A stretch of 64,000 nucleotides of DNA from NCBI GenBank assembly GCA_022695795.1, contig MU404200.1:1-64000 (forward strand). The letters run 5' to 3'. Position 1 is the stretch's first letter. The number at the start of each line of letters is the position of its first letter. Shown here piece by piece: positions 34,913-41,946 of the stretch. The DNA comes from Biscogniauxia marginata. Lineage: Eukaryota > Ascomycota > Sordariomycetes > Xylariales > Xylariaceae. A program made the position numbers and the translations under genes. Below the pieces are notes generated by a model. That model was not told the origin of the DNA. It searched no databases and saw only the letters and a program-made list of their open reading frames with translations.

Positions 34913-35453
34913 TCATTGGTGATTTGCGAACCTCGACGCATGAACACTGATCTGGCCATTTGCGTTTCCGATATTAACGTTTTCTCTCGCTGTTGCGCCC
35001 GCGGGAACCTCATCCTCATTACTGCCGGCGGCCCAGTTCAGAGTGATGGTGATGGCGTGGTTCACTAGATTCTCCGTCTCAACCCGGAGGACGTTGGCGG
35101 CAGTCCGAATAAGCGTAATAGTAGCAATTCGCAGTGCGACGGTGACCCGCTCGTTAAGACCCGGGATATTGACATCGGCGCGTGGACGAAGAGCGCTCGA
35201 AGATTCCTTACCCAAGAGTTCGTAGTAATCCACTCCTGGGTTGTACGAGTAATCGAAAACAGCGCTGTTCTCTCCGTCGGAGGAGACTTTCATAAGAAGA
35301 TCGTGGAGCTCGGGTTGAGATTCCAAGCTGCCGCAGGTTAGTTACCAGTTCTCTTCACCGGATGGGGGACACATGCCTTGACGGGGTGCTATTGGTAGGG
35401 AGAGCAAGGACGGTGGCAGAAGCCAGCGCTGCGAGGACTGCGAATACCTTCAT
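34913..35453 (-). CDS. Small secreted protein of unknown function
   Basis: Predicted 163 residues from two exons, 35453-35377 and 35327-34913. The first exon gives a clean signal peptide (MKVFAVLAALASATVLALP). The best intron is GC-AG: donor GCATGT at 35376, branch GGTAACTAAC, acceptor GGCAG, 49 bp. A GT donor downstream would leave an intron of only about 31 bp. The mature part is rich in Val, Ile and Asn (LNERVTVALRIATITLIRTA, then NHAITITLNWAAG), suggesting a beta-sandwich, and contains no cysteine. I do not recognise the family. It could be an effector-like or surface protein; an alternative is that the donor mutation has disabled the gene. Confidence 0.6.
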
Positions 35454-36815
35454 GGTGAAGAGGAAAAGATAGAGAATCGTTATAGAAGATGTGATCTGTC
35501 GGCTGGGAGCGGTAAACAAAAGCGAAGTCTCGATCGAGGCTGTTCTTGTGATTGATGGTGTCTCACGCTGTTACTACTAGGCTGAGGGCATGAAGACGCC
35601 TATTTGTAGGCATCTTCATGTTGTGAACGGCAAGTTCGGAGTTTTCATCCCCTCGTTCAGGTCCTTGCATCCTCGTATTGAAAATATCGTCAGATGCAGC
35701 ATCTGCCCATGTTTGCGTTTGCCTCTTGAAGGATTTGCCAAGGGTCTTGTTATTCGTCCAAAGACTCTGCATGCTCACCCCGAGAGATGCCGAGTCCGCG
35801 GGTGTCGTTTCTACGTAACGGATCGGCAAGAATCATGGAAAGGCCGGACTAGTTGTCGCCGCCACGCTTGTATTAAGACAACGATGGAATACACTAGAAG
35901 CCATTTGATGCAATGAACATGCCATTACGGATGGCTCGTATACATGGTTATGCAATGTTTGGAACAGAATACATAATATATACATTTTGGGTTTAGATCC
36001 CTGTTCTGTTTCTGTCAGACGGTGAGCTAGGTCAAGGAGCACAAGTGATTACGTAACCTTAAGGAAACAAAGACAGTGTTCTCGTGTAAATATAATATAA
36101 CGGGTAATGCAAGTGGTTGTAGTTTTAATTTCCCTCGCAGCGATAGCCTGATTACCTAAGCCCTCGTGGCAGTTTCTCTGTAGATCAACCAACGTAGGTT
36201 TAAGCACGTACCAAAGGTAGCCCACCGACGGTAGGCCTATAGAAACTTTTAGCGAGCTCCATATAAATAACTGTTGGTATATGCTTAAAACTAGTGTGAT
36301 CTGCAAAGCATGGCTAATGCAGGTTTTATAGTGGGTGATAAAGTGGGCGACAAAGTGCCGAACAGCCCCAAATAGCCCCAAATAGGCGGCACTAGTGTAA
36401 ACTACGGGTACGTGTTTATTAAAGGCGCCCCGGTTGATCTGCAGAGAAACGGTGGTGGCAGGGGTCTAGACTCCCTCCACGGTAAGCGAACTGTCAAACA
36501 ACCCAAACAGGCGGTAAGTCATTGTAATAAGCAGCACGAAGCCGGGGCTTGGCGTGGAATTAAGTCCCGAATCCGGGGTACATTATCAGACACGAACTCG
36601 GTCCACATACAAGGCTACGACCACCCCTGACACATCGGCAAATTCAACGTCATGCTCAGTCTTGTCGAGTGCACAAATTCAATACGACAGAGAGGCATAG
36701 TGATAAGAGCAAGGTTTTAAGGACACCGTTTCTTGATTCTTGATGCTATATACGGAGTACACGACTAGCTAGCTGACGGCGTGGCGGAACCCAACGATCC
36801 GCTTGTCTTATTCCT
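35454..36815. other. Intergenic region with weak ORFs
   Basis: An 88-codon minus ORF (35563-35829) has a coding-like texture (SFKRQTQTWADAASDDIF), but no start context, domain or signal peptide that I can use. Otherwise no gene. Confidence 0.4.
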
Positions 36816-37207
36816 TTACCAAGGGCAGGCACTGTCCCCATTTTGGATGAACTGCCTGCAGCAGTTATAGAAAGAATTCCCATCGATGCCGTCCTTCAGG
36901 CACTGCGAGTTTCGCTGTTAGCCCGACTCAGTTGTTCAGCCTTCCAAGGGTAAACCTACATAGTCGCCAGCGAAGCGGACTTTCCCTGAAGTAGTCAAGT
37001 ACGAAGTTGTACCTCCGAACCTGCTGCAGCAGGTTCCCGTACTCTCGCTATCGATCGCGCCGTCCGTGTTGATTTGACAGCCGCACGCGCCGTGCTTCGC
37101 GGCGTTGACGCCCCTGCTGGCGGTTAACGGCTGTAGGTTTGATAGAAGAACCAACGGACTCACATGAGGACGCTGCTGAGAACGACGAGGATAGAGGCAG
37201 CCTTCAT
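36816..37207 (-). CDS. Small secreted 8-cysteine protein A
   Basis: Predicted 95 residues from three exons: 37207-37164, 37116-36960 and 36902-36816. The signal peptide (MKAASILVVLSSVL) is interrupted by a phase-2 intron with donor GTGAGT; the second intron (GTAGGT...CGCAG) is phase 0 and sits directly before the fifth cysteine. The Cys pattern is C-x-C-x15-CC-x22-C-x12-CC-x10-C, eight in total, enough for four disulfides. The paralogue at 37904-38355 shares the spacing, the motif CCSR.GG, the FAG.YC segment and the final Cys-Pro. It has two CC pairs like hydrophobins, but the order of single cysteines differs and there is no long hydrophobic stretch, so it is not a hydrophobin. A TATA-like element lies at 37344-37353. 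Family unrecognised; effector-like by size, secretion and Cys content. Confidence 0.8.
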
Positions 37208-37343
37208 ATTGAATTTGGTGATATTGTAGTCGAAACGTGATAATGTGATAGTATTGTAGTTGAGACGGGATGGTTTGCAAACTGAAAAAAGAGTTTGTGA
37301 TGGACCTTTCAACATGTATGGCGGAGGGGAATTCGACCTCCTC

Positions 37344-37353
37344 ATATATATAT
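37344..37353 (-). promoter_or_regulatory. TATA-like element of 8-Cys gene A
   Basis: An ATATATATAT tract about 140 bp upstream of the start codon of the minus-strand 8-Cys gene, in the shared intergenic region of the divergent pair. Confidence 0.35.
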
Positions 37354-37451
37354 TCGTTCTCCGTGGACACAGGCCGTTGATCAGTGCCGAGAAGAGAAGA
37401 CAAGGGGGCGAGTAAATTTCGGTCTCGCTATTTGGCACGTATACGGGCCCC

Positions 37452-37688
37452 CTAGCCTCTGGCAAACGAACACGAATTTACGGAAGTTCGTGGAAGTTCG
37501 TGGTTCAATGAATCGTCTGATGGAGCAAGGCTGCCATGCATCATTACGAGGTAGATCTTCTTGCCAATCCCAACGGAGTGTGGCTGGCTCCAAGAATCGT
37601 TCCATTCTAAGGATTCCAACACGGTATAGTATGCTTCCATGGCCTCTTGATCGTCGAAAATAATACGAAGGACAATCTCCGGGTTCAT
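37452..37688 (-). CDS. Possible small ORF between the 8-Cys genes
   Basis: A 78-codon frame with ATG at 37688, beginning MNPEIVLRIIFDDQEAMEAY and continuing with ESLEWNDSW. The start looks protein-like, the end looks random (ELPRTSVNSCSFARG). No domain recognised. It may be a fragment, a first exon or chance, and it lies inside the shared promoter region. Confidence 0.25.
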   Translation of the reverse strand: MNPEIVLRIIFDDQEAMEAYYTVLESLEWNDSWSQPHSVGIGKKIYLVMMHGSLAPSDDSLNHELPRTSVNSCSFARG

Positions 37689-37903
37689 GCAAACAGCCCG
37701 AAGATTCCGAGTTCACCGAAACACAACTCCTGGGCGCCGACTTGAAGTGTTCGGTTCGACTAGCATATAAGCCTGGCGAGTCATCCGTAGGTCTATCTAG
37801 TCAACCTCTAGAATAACTCACTTGAATCACTCTGAGTCACTCTACTCTGGATCACTTTGAATCACTTTGAATCATCTCTATTCTATATACCAAATCTCTC
37901 ACA

Positions 37904-38355
37904 ATGAAGTTCGCTCTTCTCTTCGCGGGTGCCTGGCTGCTCTCGTACGTTGCTCCTGTTATGGTTGAGATTTCCACAATAGGCTGACTTTGCTTCTATC
38001 AGACCAGTTCTGGGTGTTGGACACAGTCTTTGCGCTTGCCAGGTCAAGTCGGATAGTGACACCCTCGACGCGGCTACCCAAGCCTGCTGCAGCAGGGTCG
38101 GAGGCCAGCTTAGTATGCCACCTTTTGACGCTTCTCAACCTTAGACCCTCTCTAACTTCTAGCAGCCCAGGATCGACTCCCCGCTACAGGAGGCATCAAG
38201 TTTGCTGGACAATATGTAAGCCGGACTGACTTAAAACTTGAATACAATCAGAGATCTAACCCCTGCGGCAGTGTCAAGGCAACGACATCAGCGGCGACCA
38301 ATTCTACTCGTGCTGCAGAAACAACGGGGGCAAGGATTCTACTTGTCCCAAGTAG
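37904..38355 (+). CDS. Small secreted 8-cysteine protein B
   Basis: Predicted 94 residues from four exons: 37904-37944, 38003-38112, 38166-38215 and 38272-38355. The signal peptide is MKFALLFAGAWLLS with a phase-2 intron inside it (donor GTACGT). The Cys pattern is C-x-C-x15-CC-x24-C-x12-CC-x9-C. It matches protein A in CCSR.GG, in FAG.YC, and in the CC pair exactly 12 residues after the fifth Cys. The first intron and the phase-0 intron before the fifth Cys match those of protein A. An extra middle intron (GTATGC...CTAACTTCTAGCAG) is present only here; it ends in a tandem acceptor, so one residue may be optional. The gene is transcribed divergently from A, with starts about 700 bp apart. Confidence 0.8.
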
Positions 38356-38753
38356 ATCAAGGGCAATAAAGCGGTGGTACCAGGAACTCATCTCAACACG
38401 CGACCTACCTTGAGATGTTGCGCAGTACCGTTCAGGCAAGATTAAACGAGGGCAGAGGACCTAGCTAGTTGTTAGTTGCAGTGATGTAGTTAAGCCCAAT
38501 GTCAACGTGTTTACCCCCGTTCTCGACTTTACAAATATGTTTGTATGATGTGTATGCATGACCACGCCTGCTGCCTCAACCACACGTCGCTACGACCGCC
38601 GTTTCTGTGGCACCCAAAATATTGTTGATTAGCTAGTCTTCCTAAGTTTGGAGAGAGAAAAAGAGGACAAGGACTTCAAAATTGGGCGTGTAGGTAGAAG
38701 TATTCCGTACTCTTGGATGACACCTAGGCCGGCAGTAATGTCATCGTCTTCCC
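38356..38753. other. Intergenic region
   Basis: 3' flank of 8-Cys gene B; nothing recognised. Confidence 0.5.
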
Positions 38754-39034
38754 ATGCACCCCGCATCACTGCCTCTGTCGACTTTCTCAATGATGGTTCA
38801 TCATATTCGAGTTATTGGACTGTTGTTATCTCAAATGGGGGGCCTAGGAAGATGCGCTGAGAACTCCTACTGCAGCTGTACCGACTGGACCGCCGCCTCG
38901 GACTCCTACAGCGATGGCTGCGGCGCGTCTGTGGACGTCGACAGCGACAATAACCAGCTTACGTCAAGGTTGTCTTCACCACTCTTGGCAGTCCAGTAGA
39001 CTTCAAGGCCAAGCTCGAAACAAGTGCCGCCTAA
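38754..39034 (+). pseudogene. Broken small Cys-containing ORF
   Basis: The frame reads CAENSYCSCTDWTAASDSYS and DGCGASVDVDSDNN, then must shift near 38955 to continue as YVKVVFTTLGSPVDFKAKL and end at 39034. Both halves are GC-rich and look coding. No intron of reasonable length joins them (the only GT..AG pair spans 29 bp). Probably a disrupted small secreted-type gene; family unknown. Confidence 0.4.
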
Positions 39035-39384
39035 TTTCGGCATTTATGGTTCTTGGCAGCCCATATAACAACGTTATCGATCTCATCAACAGGGATTTAT
39101 ATTATGTAATTTAGCTGTAACCTCCGTACAAATCGTCATTTTCACTTGGCCAGACCACGAGCTGACAGAGATAGATTTGCAGCAAAAAAGAATGTCTGTG
39201 CGGAGGCTGGAACCAGTACGTGACTGGCTCGAGGGGGCGCAGTACAAAGATTATATGTAATGGTTATATGGGCTGCCAAGAGCCAAAGTTGCCAAAAATA
39301 GGTGGCACTTCGCGTTGTTCTCTGCGCGCGCCGTGTATCTCTATGTACATACTGCATTACTGACTCTTGTTGCCAATTCTCAGA

Positions 39385-39651
39385 CGAAAGCGGTGATGGG
39401 GAAATGCAACGTTGTACACGTACGTTTGGGACAACGGTGACTTGCTCCGCCGACGCTTTGATGGAGGGAACCCTTAGGATACCCCGGTGACGGTGATCTG
39501 GTGTATTGCTGGACCGACGGAGCCGCTTGCTCGTGTGCGAATGTGACAGCCATCTCTAAAGCGAACGGGCCACCGCCTACATTGATAGTGGCCGTGCTAG
39601 AGCATGCGTCCTTCTCCCTGCTAAGCTCGTCCGACGCCGTAGATTACTAGA
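39385..39651 (+). pseudogene. Second broken coding-like fragment
   Basis: Segments reading ATLYTYVWDNGDLLR and, in another frame, GDGDLVYCWTDGAACSCANV with a tail to the stop at 39649-39651. Separated by stops and a frame change near 39478. A faint Tyr-Cys / Cys-x-Cys resemblance to the fragment at 38860-38900 hints at a common origin, but this is weak. Confidence 0.3.
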
Positions 39652-39812
39652 ATTCGGTATTTTCGTGTTTGCAAGTTCTCGGGGGGTTATTAAAGATCAC
39701 ATTCCACTCTGTGGTGACACTGTAGTCACTATCCCCATCAGGCATTGGCATGCCATCCGGGAACATAATGGTGCTGCGCTTCGCGTGGAGTTCGTACTTG
39801 GTTTTTTCTATC

Positions 39813-40237
39813 CTATCTAGTCCCTATCATCCTCGTGCTGTAACTTGAGTCCAAATTTACGCTGCAGAACTTGGTCAGGGACAACTCAAAACCACTCATG
39901 TCGGGTATCTCCAAGTTGCCATACTCGTAGGCCTGGAGAGATGAATTTTCATCGACGAAACAATGGATGCCTCGGAGTTGGCTGCTGTTTGGAGGCATAG
40001 TAGGCTTCACGATTTGAACGAACCTATATCCCGGGACTAGAGCTTTGTCAAAAACCATGACTTCGCCCTTAGTTGTTGGTGTCAGAGTGCTTGTTTAGCA
40101 ACTGGCGGAGGTCTTGAAGATCTTAAGAATGTTCCTTGGGTGCCTCGGCAACTTGGCTAATTAAGGGCAAGGTGTTGTAAGTGCTAGAAAGCACGAAGGA
40201 ATCAATGAGGGCGGCTATTGTATTACTAGAGGACAAG
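39813..40237 (-). pseudogene. Unknown ORF fragments directly downstream of an LTR
   Basis: On the minus strand, SSSNTIAALIDSFVLSSTYN and DLQDLRQLLNKHSDT (with a stop between them), then an 81-codon frame from 40058 (MVFDKALVPGYRFVQIVKP). It starts right after the LTR end at 40238, where the 5' part of a retroelement would lie, but no gag or pol motif is visible. It could equally be a host gene remnant next to an LTR insertion. Confidence 0.35.
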
Positions 40238-40482
40238 TGTTAAGGGGATAATATTGTGTTATTAATGTTAGCAACTTAAAGAGTAAAGAAACTATTAATG
40301 GGATCTGAGGTGAATGCTAGGTTAAGAAGAGGCAGCGTGATAAGGCACCCATATATTGAGATTATATACAGCCTGAAACCTGACCTCCTAGTCTTACTCT
40401 CTAAGGCGATGTTACCCCTCTTATATACACCTATACACGTGATATCCCAGCTATAGGCACTATATCCGATAAAACACTAACA
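40238..40482 (-). mobile_element. 245-bp LTR (TGTTA...TAACA), minus strand
   Basis: Read on the minus strand from 40482: it starts TGTTAGTGTTTTATCGG, contains ATATCACGTGTA and GTATATATAAGAGGGGTAA (probable LTR promoter), and ends CCCCTTAACA at 40238. The inverted ends TGTTA/TAACA are intact. The flanking 5-mers (ACAAG and ATGAA) do not match, so it is not a clean solo LTR; either half of an element is lost or internal sequence follows toward lower coordinates. A diverged plus-strand copy lies at 22000-22161. Confidence 0.7.
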
Positions 40483-41946
40483 ATGAAATTCGTGTCAAAA
40501 AGGTAGGAGCAGCTATCTCGCCTCTTTTAAACCGTATCCGAAGCAGATCCATAGTTTATTAAGATCTATAGAGCTGCCTTTTATAAGTCGAGGCCATAGG
40601 CAGGATTATTTAATCACACTAATATATCTATAAACCATACTTTATAAGTTCTTTTTAAGACTTATAAGACTCACATGCTAACTATATAATGGTTAAAATC
40701 TGTAATAACTAAATCACAACTATGAATATAAGTTGTTATATGTAAATTAAGCTATTTTACTATGTTACATCATAAATGTCACGTTAAGAAGGCAAGCTAG
40801 GTGCAACCAGTGTATTCCTATGAGGGAGGGATAGAGCAAGACAAACGCTTGCCCTATCCCAATATAAGGGGAGGGAGTCTATCCTTATATACCTGCTACA
40901 GGTCAGGGACTGACTGTCACGGACTGCAATAAGACCCAGGGCGTGGAGGCTTGAGCGATCTCTGTATTACAATGAGAAAGAATTGCGTGAGGAAAGAAAG
41001 GTTCCTCACGCTACTAGCAAGCTACATACATTTTTAAGTACCAAAGTTGAGTCCTGGCAATAGGCGTTGTCATCCGAATAGCTTCACCACAGCAACGGCT
41101 GTGACACTGACCTGAAGCAGGTAAGGTACGTGCTAGTACCTGCTGTGACAAGTATGCACCCTGTATCAGGACTGCCTGTGACAATAAATTTTAAGTTAAA
41201 ATAAACATTTCTAGTTTTTTATACCTTTTTTATATTATTATATAATGGTTAACATTAATTAATATATAAATATTTATTATTAATTATATTAAACTTTGTT
41301 TTATAGTTTTTCTTTTTAAAAACATATTTATAATTTAATTATTTTAAATTAATTAATTAATTATATATTTTTATAATAATTATTTTATATATTAAATATA
41401 ATTAAATATAAACATATATTATTTTAAAAAGGTATATATATTTAATTTTTAACTTTTAAATTTTCTTTATAAAAAACCCTTTTTTAATTAGTTTTACGTT
41501 TTAATAACCCCTAGTTAGTTTTTGCTAGGATCTTCACGATGATTCCTTGGAGTTGTATAATTGACTGTATTATTGATTAAGGAAAGAGAGAGAGAATCTC
41601 CCAGCGAGAATCTCACAGATAGGCTATCTATCCTCATGAGATCACGTGATCTCCTAACAGTTTTAGTTCCAGGTTTAATTAAACTAACTATTTTCCATCC
41701 CTTCTAAGGCAACGCACCTTACACATTGGAGGTTAGGTACTGTCTAGTGGCATTGAGCTGCCCTTCCTCTCTTTTCTTTACATCACTCATTTTCATGTAC
41801 TACCCAATTCCAATTCCAACTACCCACCACCTTTCGCACTACACAACATAGATCTCGTAATATCAAATCAGCAACACCGGCTAGAGTTGTACGGCACTCG
41901 GTACCAGACCAGAATCCTTATACGACGACAATCCTCGTAGCACACA
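40483..41946. repeat. AT-rich, probably RIP-decayed repeat block
   Basis: No gene. Between about 41170 and 41510 the DNA is almost entirely A and T (runs of AATTAATTAATTAAT). The preceding 350 bp has repeat-like sequence (CCTATCCCAATATAAGGGG). This is the usual look of repeat-induced point-mutated transposon DNA in Pezizomycotina. The last 200 bp, rich in C/T and CAATTCC, is the promoter of the kinase gene. Confidence 0.6.

Follow-up and report, generated by a model that had tools for sequence, protein, structure and literature searches.

A divergent gene pair for putatively secreted paralogues with a predicted KP6 fold in Biscogniauxia marginata

Two divergent genes and their products

The window analysed here, a 64,000-nucleotide stretch of contig MU404200.1 from the Xylariales ascomycete Biscogniauxia marginata (assembly GCA_022695795.1), carries two small genes, A and B, that point away from each other and together span exactly 36816-38355. 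Gene A (type A) lies on the minus strand and has three exons, gene B (type B) lies on the plus strand and has four, and each encodes a product of 94 amino acids. The features of the locus are as follows.

37164-37207, minus strand: gene A exon 1, putative signal peptide, ends in phase 2; protein identical to F5X99DRAFT_414392
37114-37163, minus strand: gene A intron 1, 50 bases, GTGAGT...CAG
36960-37113, minus strand: gene A exon 2, with Cys 1-4, CCSRFGG and ...FAGDY
36903-36959, minus strand: gene A intron 2, 57 bases, phase 0, right before Cys 5
36816-36902, minus strand: gene A exon 3, with Cys 5-8 and the stop codon
37208-37903, no strand assigned: 696 bases between the start codons, presumed to be a shared two-way promoter
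37904-37944, plus strand: gene B exon 1, putative signal peptide, ends in phase 2; protein identical to F5X99DRAFT_414393
37945-38002, plus strand: gene B intron 1, 58 bases, site and phase as in gene A intron 1
38003-38112, plus strand: gene B exon 2, with Cys 1-4 and CCSRVGG
38113-38165, plus strand: gene B intron 2, phase 1, lacking in gene A; acceptors TAG 38162 and CAG 38165
38166-38215, plus strand: gene B exon 3, with ...FAGQY
38216-38271, plus strand: gene B intron 3, 56 bases, phase 0, site as in the last intron of gene A
38272-38355, plus strand: gene B exon 4, with Cys 5-8 and the stop codon

A first-pass annotation of the sequence had proposed two spliced, back-to-back genes with seven exons, and both spliced models are indeed identical (100% over 94 amino acids) to annotated B. 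marginata proteins, F5X99DRAFT_414392 for A and 414393 for B. Because of this identity, and because each window protein shares 66-82% of its residues with full-length relatives of the matching type from other species, gene models arising by chance are excluded. All five introns run GT...AG, are 50-58 bases long and have a CTNAY- or TTNAY-like branch site close to the 3' end. Intron 1 of both genes falls in a common alignment column (16) in phase 2, and their last introns both come after column 69, in phase 0, immediately ahead of the fifth cysteine; the annotation had pointed to these equivalent sites, and they bear out its claim that A and B, which are 39% identical, share common descent. The additional intron of gene B adjoins the spot at which gene A is two residues shorter and has two possible acceptors, of which the annotated protein corresponds to 38165.

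Read from the spliced models, the cysteine spacing is C-1-C-15-CC-22-C-12-CC-10-C in gene A and C-1-C-15-CC-24-C-12-CC-9-C in gene B, the pattern that the annotation had given, and its divergent arrangement around some 700 base pairs measures 696 bases between the two ATG codons. Both proteins are neutral to acidic. Their signal peptides, judged by eye, agree with the earlier view that both would be secreted. That view had also set the proteins apart from hydrophobins, and we likewise reject a hydrophobin identity: the hydrophobin cysteine order is C-CC-C-C-CC-C, that of A and B is C-C-CC-C-CC-C, and no hydrophobin family in Pfam was matched at E up to 10.

Family membership, age and linkage

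When roughly 5.8 billion proteins, in clusters of 90% identity, were searched, 17 family members were listed at E up to 0.1 after profile scoring of 998 candidates. Six are from Biscogniauxia (B. marginata, B. mediterranea and Biscogniauxia sp. FL1348) and 11 from Fusarium, a genus of a different subclass and order. As the search requires shared five-residue words, remote relatives or other genera may have been missed. Eight cysteines are present in 12 of 13 family proteins, the thirteenth being a partial entry with seven. Three Fusarium entries (P0015 from F. avenaceum, P0016 from F. oxysporum II5 and P0017 from F. euwallaceae) end in unrelated letters that begin roughly at the B. marginata intron sites, and are probably mis-spliced gene models. 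The cluster of another F. euwallaceae entry, P0004, is named 'Cyanovirin-N domain-containing' in one source, a name that looks wrong or drawn from another cluster member, since Pfam gives only a weak match to DUF5948.

The annotation could not place the family, and by sequence no named family can be assigned. DUF5948 (PF19373), the sole Pfam family consistently matched (12 of the 13 members scanned, within residues 24-91), always scored under the Pfam cut-off, with a best score of 20.9 bits (P0014) against the curated 23.7 bits, and is a distant relative at most; P0002 had no DUF5948 match whatsoever, and DUF5437 was matched by one member at E 0.11. Searching the B. marginata genome with both proteins recovered only the pair itself. 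The DUF5948 profile found one match there (15.3 bits and E 0.95 over 25 model positions), located on a different contig, which lies under the cut-off and was not counted as an additional copy; this profile search is weak evidence of absence because it missed the pair itself, exons being scored separately. A CCSR-like codon pattern was uninformative in the same genome (34 matches, against 34 in a reversed control), and pattern searches for the family in contigs of bacteria, archaea and viruses gave 26 and 56 matches, of which none was confirmed.

Sequences of solved structures were searched with gene B directly and with gene A as part of a profile of 14 family proteins. Using phmmer, gene B matched transcription activator-like (TAL) effectors at E down to 1.7e-11; we discarded these matches as spurious because they cover a stretch of only 24-25 residues, no stretch passes alone and TAL effectors are repeat proteins. 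The same search also gave alanine-tRNA-ligase and aminomethyltransferase rows; the profile matched three methyltransferase entries, at E 1.2.

A tree was built from 13 of 17 family members, leaving out P0006, P0015, P0016 and P0017 because they are partial or have unusual ends. In it, A and B form distinct clades with support of 100/100, each containing both Biscogniauxia and Fusarium. Mature regions are 38-49% identical between A and B and 67-82% identical across the genera inside one type. Taken together, these results place the duplication before the separation of the Biscogniauxia and Fusarium copies and rule out one private to the B. marginata genome. The local inverted duplication that the annotation envisaged is thereby possible only as an old origin of the pair. 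In all four genomes that have both types, A and B are on contigs of identical size (77,969, 16,535, 156,994 and 3,140 bases), presumably the same contig, so that the two types would be linked. On the 3,140-base contig of F. euwallaceae, the pair has consecutive locus tags (017446 and 017447). The orientation of the pair was seen in B. marginata, and the other three genomes contribute the equal contig sizes.

Such a distribution raises the question of whether the pair moved horizontally as a unit between Biscogniauxia and Fusarium, in either direction, or reached them from an unsampled source, a history that would fit any function. Several observations suggest it: the family was found in just these two genera; mean identity falls only from 76.9% within Biscogniauxia to 74.2% between the genera for type A, and from 81.6% to 73.1% for type B, drops that seem small for different subclasses; and the B protein of the F. 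euwallaceae pair clusters with Biscogniauxia (support of 92/97). However, an approximately unbiased test does not reject a single Fusarium clade (P = 0.164 for B and 0.382 for A), saturation in a 75-residue domain may have flattened the identities, the word-based search may have overlooked relatives in other genera, and the comparison is one of proteins rather than of Fusarium flanking DNA or yardstick genes. We regard transfer as possible but short of probable and, since vertical descent is compatible with the clade tests, retain it as an alternative without adopting it.

Predicted fold and known systems

Although the family has no name by sequence, it can be placed by predicted structure. 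The KP6 killer toxin (Protein Data Bank entries 1kp6 and 4gvb) is the best structural match of the models of both A and B, which rest on alignments A1 and A2 of 14 of the 17 proteins (P0001-P0014). The top three entries for both models have the KP6 arrangement, beta-alpha-beta-beta-alpha-beta with two helices on the sheet, superposable on KP6; in model B, the central strands are assigned only in part. A Foldseek match on its own is weak evidence for this fold, and no sequence match of the family to KP6 or to Zt-KP6-1 was found at E up to 10. We consider it very probable that A and B each form one KP6-fold domain some 75 residues long, in which the eight cysteines could make up to four disulfides. 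The annotation had named a clear match to a characterised family as grounds for abandoning its view; none turned up by sequence, and the match to KP6 is one of predicted fold.

Some small, uncharacterised proteins of invertebrate iridescent viruses in the BFVD database also match the fold models. Those of IIV22 (W8W1F8) and of the Armadillidium vulgare virus (A0A068QK58) are matched by both models, with probabilities of 0.96-1.00 and E of 5e-3 to 0.065; a Wiseana virus protein (G0T528) is matched by model A only (probability 1.00, E 1.8e-3) and an unnamed protein (A0A7G7S0H7) by both. Invertebrate viruses may therefore carry a KP6-like protein. Searching viral contigs with the fungal family profile confirmed none, and among the papers listed by a literature search, none contained the term iridescent virus.

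KP6 itself, from Ustilago maydis virus P6, resembles the pair in consisting of two small secreted KP6-fold chains, and entry 4gvb is titled as the heterodimer. According to an excerpt of the source, the toxin is neutral, as A and B are neutral to acidic, and its two polypeptides are cut by Kex2p from a pre-protoxin (PMC11119588). The pair differs from KP6 proper in this respect: KP6 derives from one virus-encoded precursor, whereas A and B come from separate nuclear genes that contain introns and lie on opposite strands, and both have a putative signal peptide. Zt-KP6-1 of Zymoseptoria tritici, AvrLm6, BAS4 and Ecp28 are, as A and B would be, nuclear, small and secreted, with a KP6 fold solved or predicted; the last three were set beside the pair by description. 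None of the four is described, in the parts of the sources available to us, as a conserved divergent pair of KP6-fold paralogues. The accessible text of one survey describes KP6-fold Venturia proteins as small and secreted with two to four disulfides, and the fold as widespread and often abundant among the secreted proteins of plant-pathogenic fungi (PMC9632046).

In arrangement, the nearest parallels are AVR2-SIX5 and SIX8-PSL1 of Fusarium oxysporum. Like A and B, each is an adjacent, divergent pair of genes for two small secreted proteins; excerpts of the source state that they have common promoters, that the partners interact and work as pairs, and that SIX5 and PSL1 are predicted to be KP6-like (PMC10942635). 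The B. marginata genes are likewise adjacent and divergent, with a common upstream region and products that would be secreted. The composition of the pairs differs: AVR2-SIX5 and SIX8-PSL1 join a ToxA-like to a KP6-like partner, whereas A and B both match KP6 best and are paralogues of one fold.

Proposed function and alternatives

The explanation that we favour, tentatively and at somewhat less than an even chance, is that the locus holds two divergent paralogues conserved as a pair, each consisting of a signal peptide and one KP6-fold domain, that are co-secreted and jointly antimicrobial. The two genes would be expressed jointly from the common region between them, and their products would act in partnership, like the two chains of the Ustilago KP6 toxin, on competing microbes, above all other fungi, in bark and wood. 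Joint action is pointed to by precedent, in the KP6 toxin and in the divergent F. oxysporum pairs, and we put some joint function of A and B at an even chance. The annotation's suggestion of an effector or antimicrobial role is plausible by analogy, and between these two the balance seems equal: antimicrobial action is favoured because KP6 is a killer toxin, and host-directed action because there are many KP6-like plant effectors. The title alone of a 2025 paper by de Guillen et al. reportedly leans to the antimicrobial side. Since both proteins are neutral to acidic, they are unlikely to be simple cationic membrane peptides.

Under the closest alternative in terms of function, the genes are a divergent pair of host-directed effectors that act jointly on tree cells or plant immunity, in the manner of AVR2-SIX5 and SIX8-PSL1. 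That arrangement speaks for it, as do, in excerpts of the sources, the frequency of KP6-like folds among predicted effectors, AvrLm6, BAS4 and Ecp28 being examples (PMC9632046), and the mainly endophytic habit of Biscogniauxia's family, some members of which can become opportunistic pathogens (PMC12783183). The known pairs, however, have one ToxA-like partner. Moreover, the family extends to F. euwallaceae, a Fusarium species that associates with beetles, and thus points to no one host. We judge such an effector pair to be possible, if doubtful.

Alternatively, the paralogues could have separate, ordinary roles, with their adjacency a mere relic of duplication. Five Fusarium taxa showed one type only: type A in F. 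equiseti, F. kuroshium and F. avenaceum, and type B in F. oxysporum and Fusarium sp. MPI-SDFR-AT-0072. One or more additional B-type proteins are present in F. euwallaceae. These facts count against an obligatory pair; the low identity of A to B and the extra intron of type B in B. marginata also fit separate roles. Against this stands the occurrence of both types on equal-sized contigs in all four two-type genomes, across two subclasses and despite the old duplication, and we consider separate roles unlikely. A more specific form of the antimicrobial explanation, a nuclear two-gene KP6-type killer toxin with both subunits needed against rival fungi and the cassette passed whole between bark- and wood-dwelling Biscogniauxia and Fusarium, appears improbable. 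In KP6 itself, both chains are required to kill sensitive fungi. Least likely of all is that the structure models are misleading and A and B adopt a different disulfide-rich fold, such as a generic ferredoxin-like one with no relation to KP6.

The neighbouring genes are ordinary: an FAD-linked oxidase, a tyrosinase, a PRISE-like reductase, a fungal protein kinase and, marginally under the cut-off, an SRR1-like protein. A possible two-exon gene for a secreted protein with a signal-peptide-like start lies at 34913-35570 on the minus strand; neither of its two translated pieces matched a Pfam family at E up to 0.1. Directly downstream of gene B, at 38739-39114 on the plus strand, short open frames contain a cysteine-rich stretch without a convincing Pfam match, which could be a decayed gene for a small secreted protein or chance. 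An island of interspersed repeats occupies 40308-41476, and pieces of 38400-41900 match dozens of genome sites (65 matches, from scoring 40 of 224 candidates; outside the window, the top 40 are 78-92% identical and weaker ones lower). Low guanine and cytosine content was seen at 41-42 kilobases. We rejected a transposon origin of the pair: a search that skipped very common words found no second genomic copy of 35850-38400, and the repeats start only near 40.3 kilobases.

Both the KP6-fold superfamily and the divergent arrangement of effector genes, which the pair recalls by its predicted fold and its layout, are already known. New, as far as a limited search of partly accessible literature goes, is a divergent pair of two KP6-fold paralogues, of which that search found no earlier report, with both types on presumably one contig in a second fungal order. 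As a compact pair with no other genomic copies found and with relatives in a second order, it offers a clean system in which to ask whether KP6-like proteins hit plants or rival microbes, and why KP6 has two chains.
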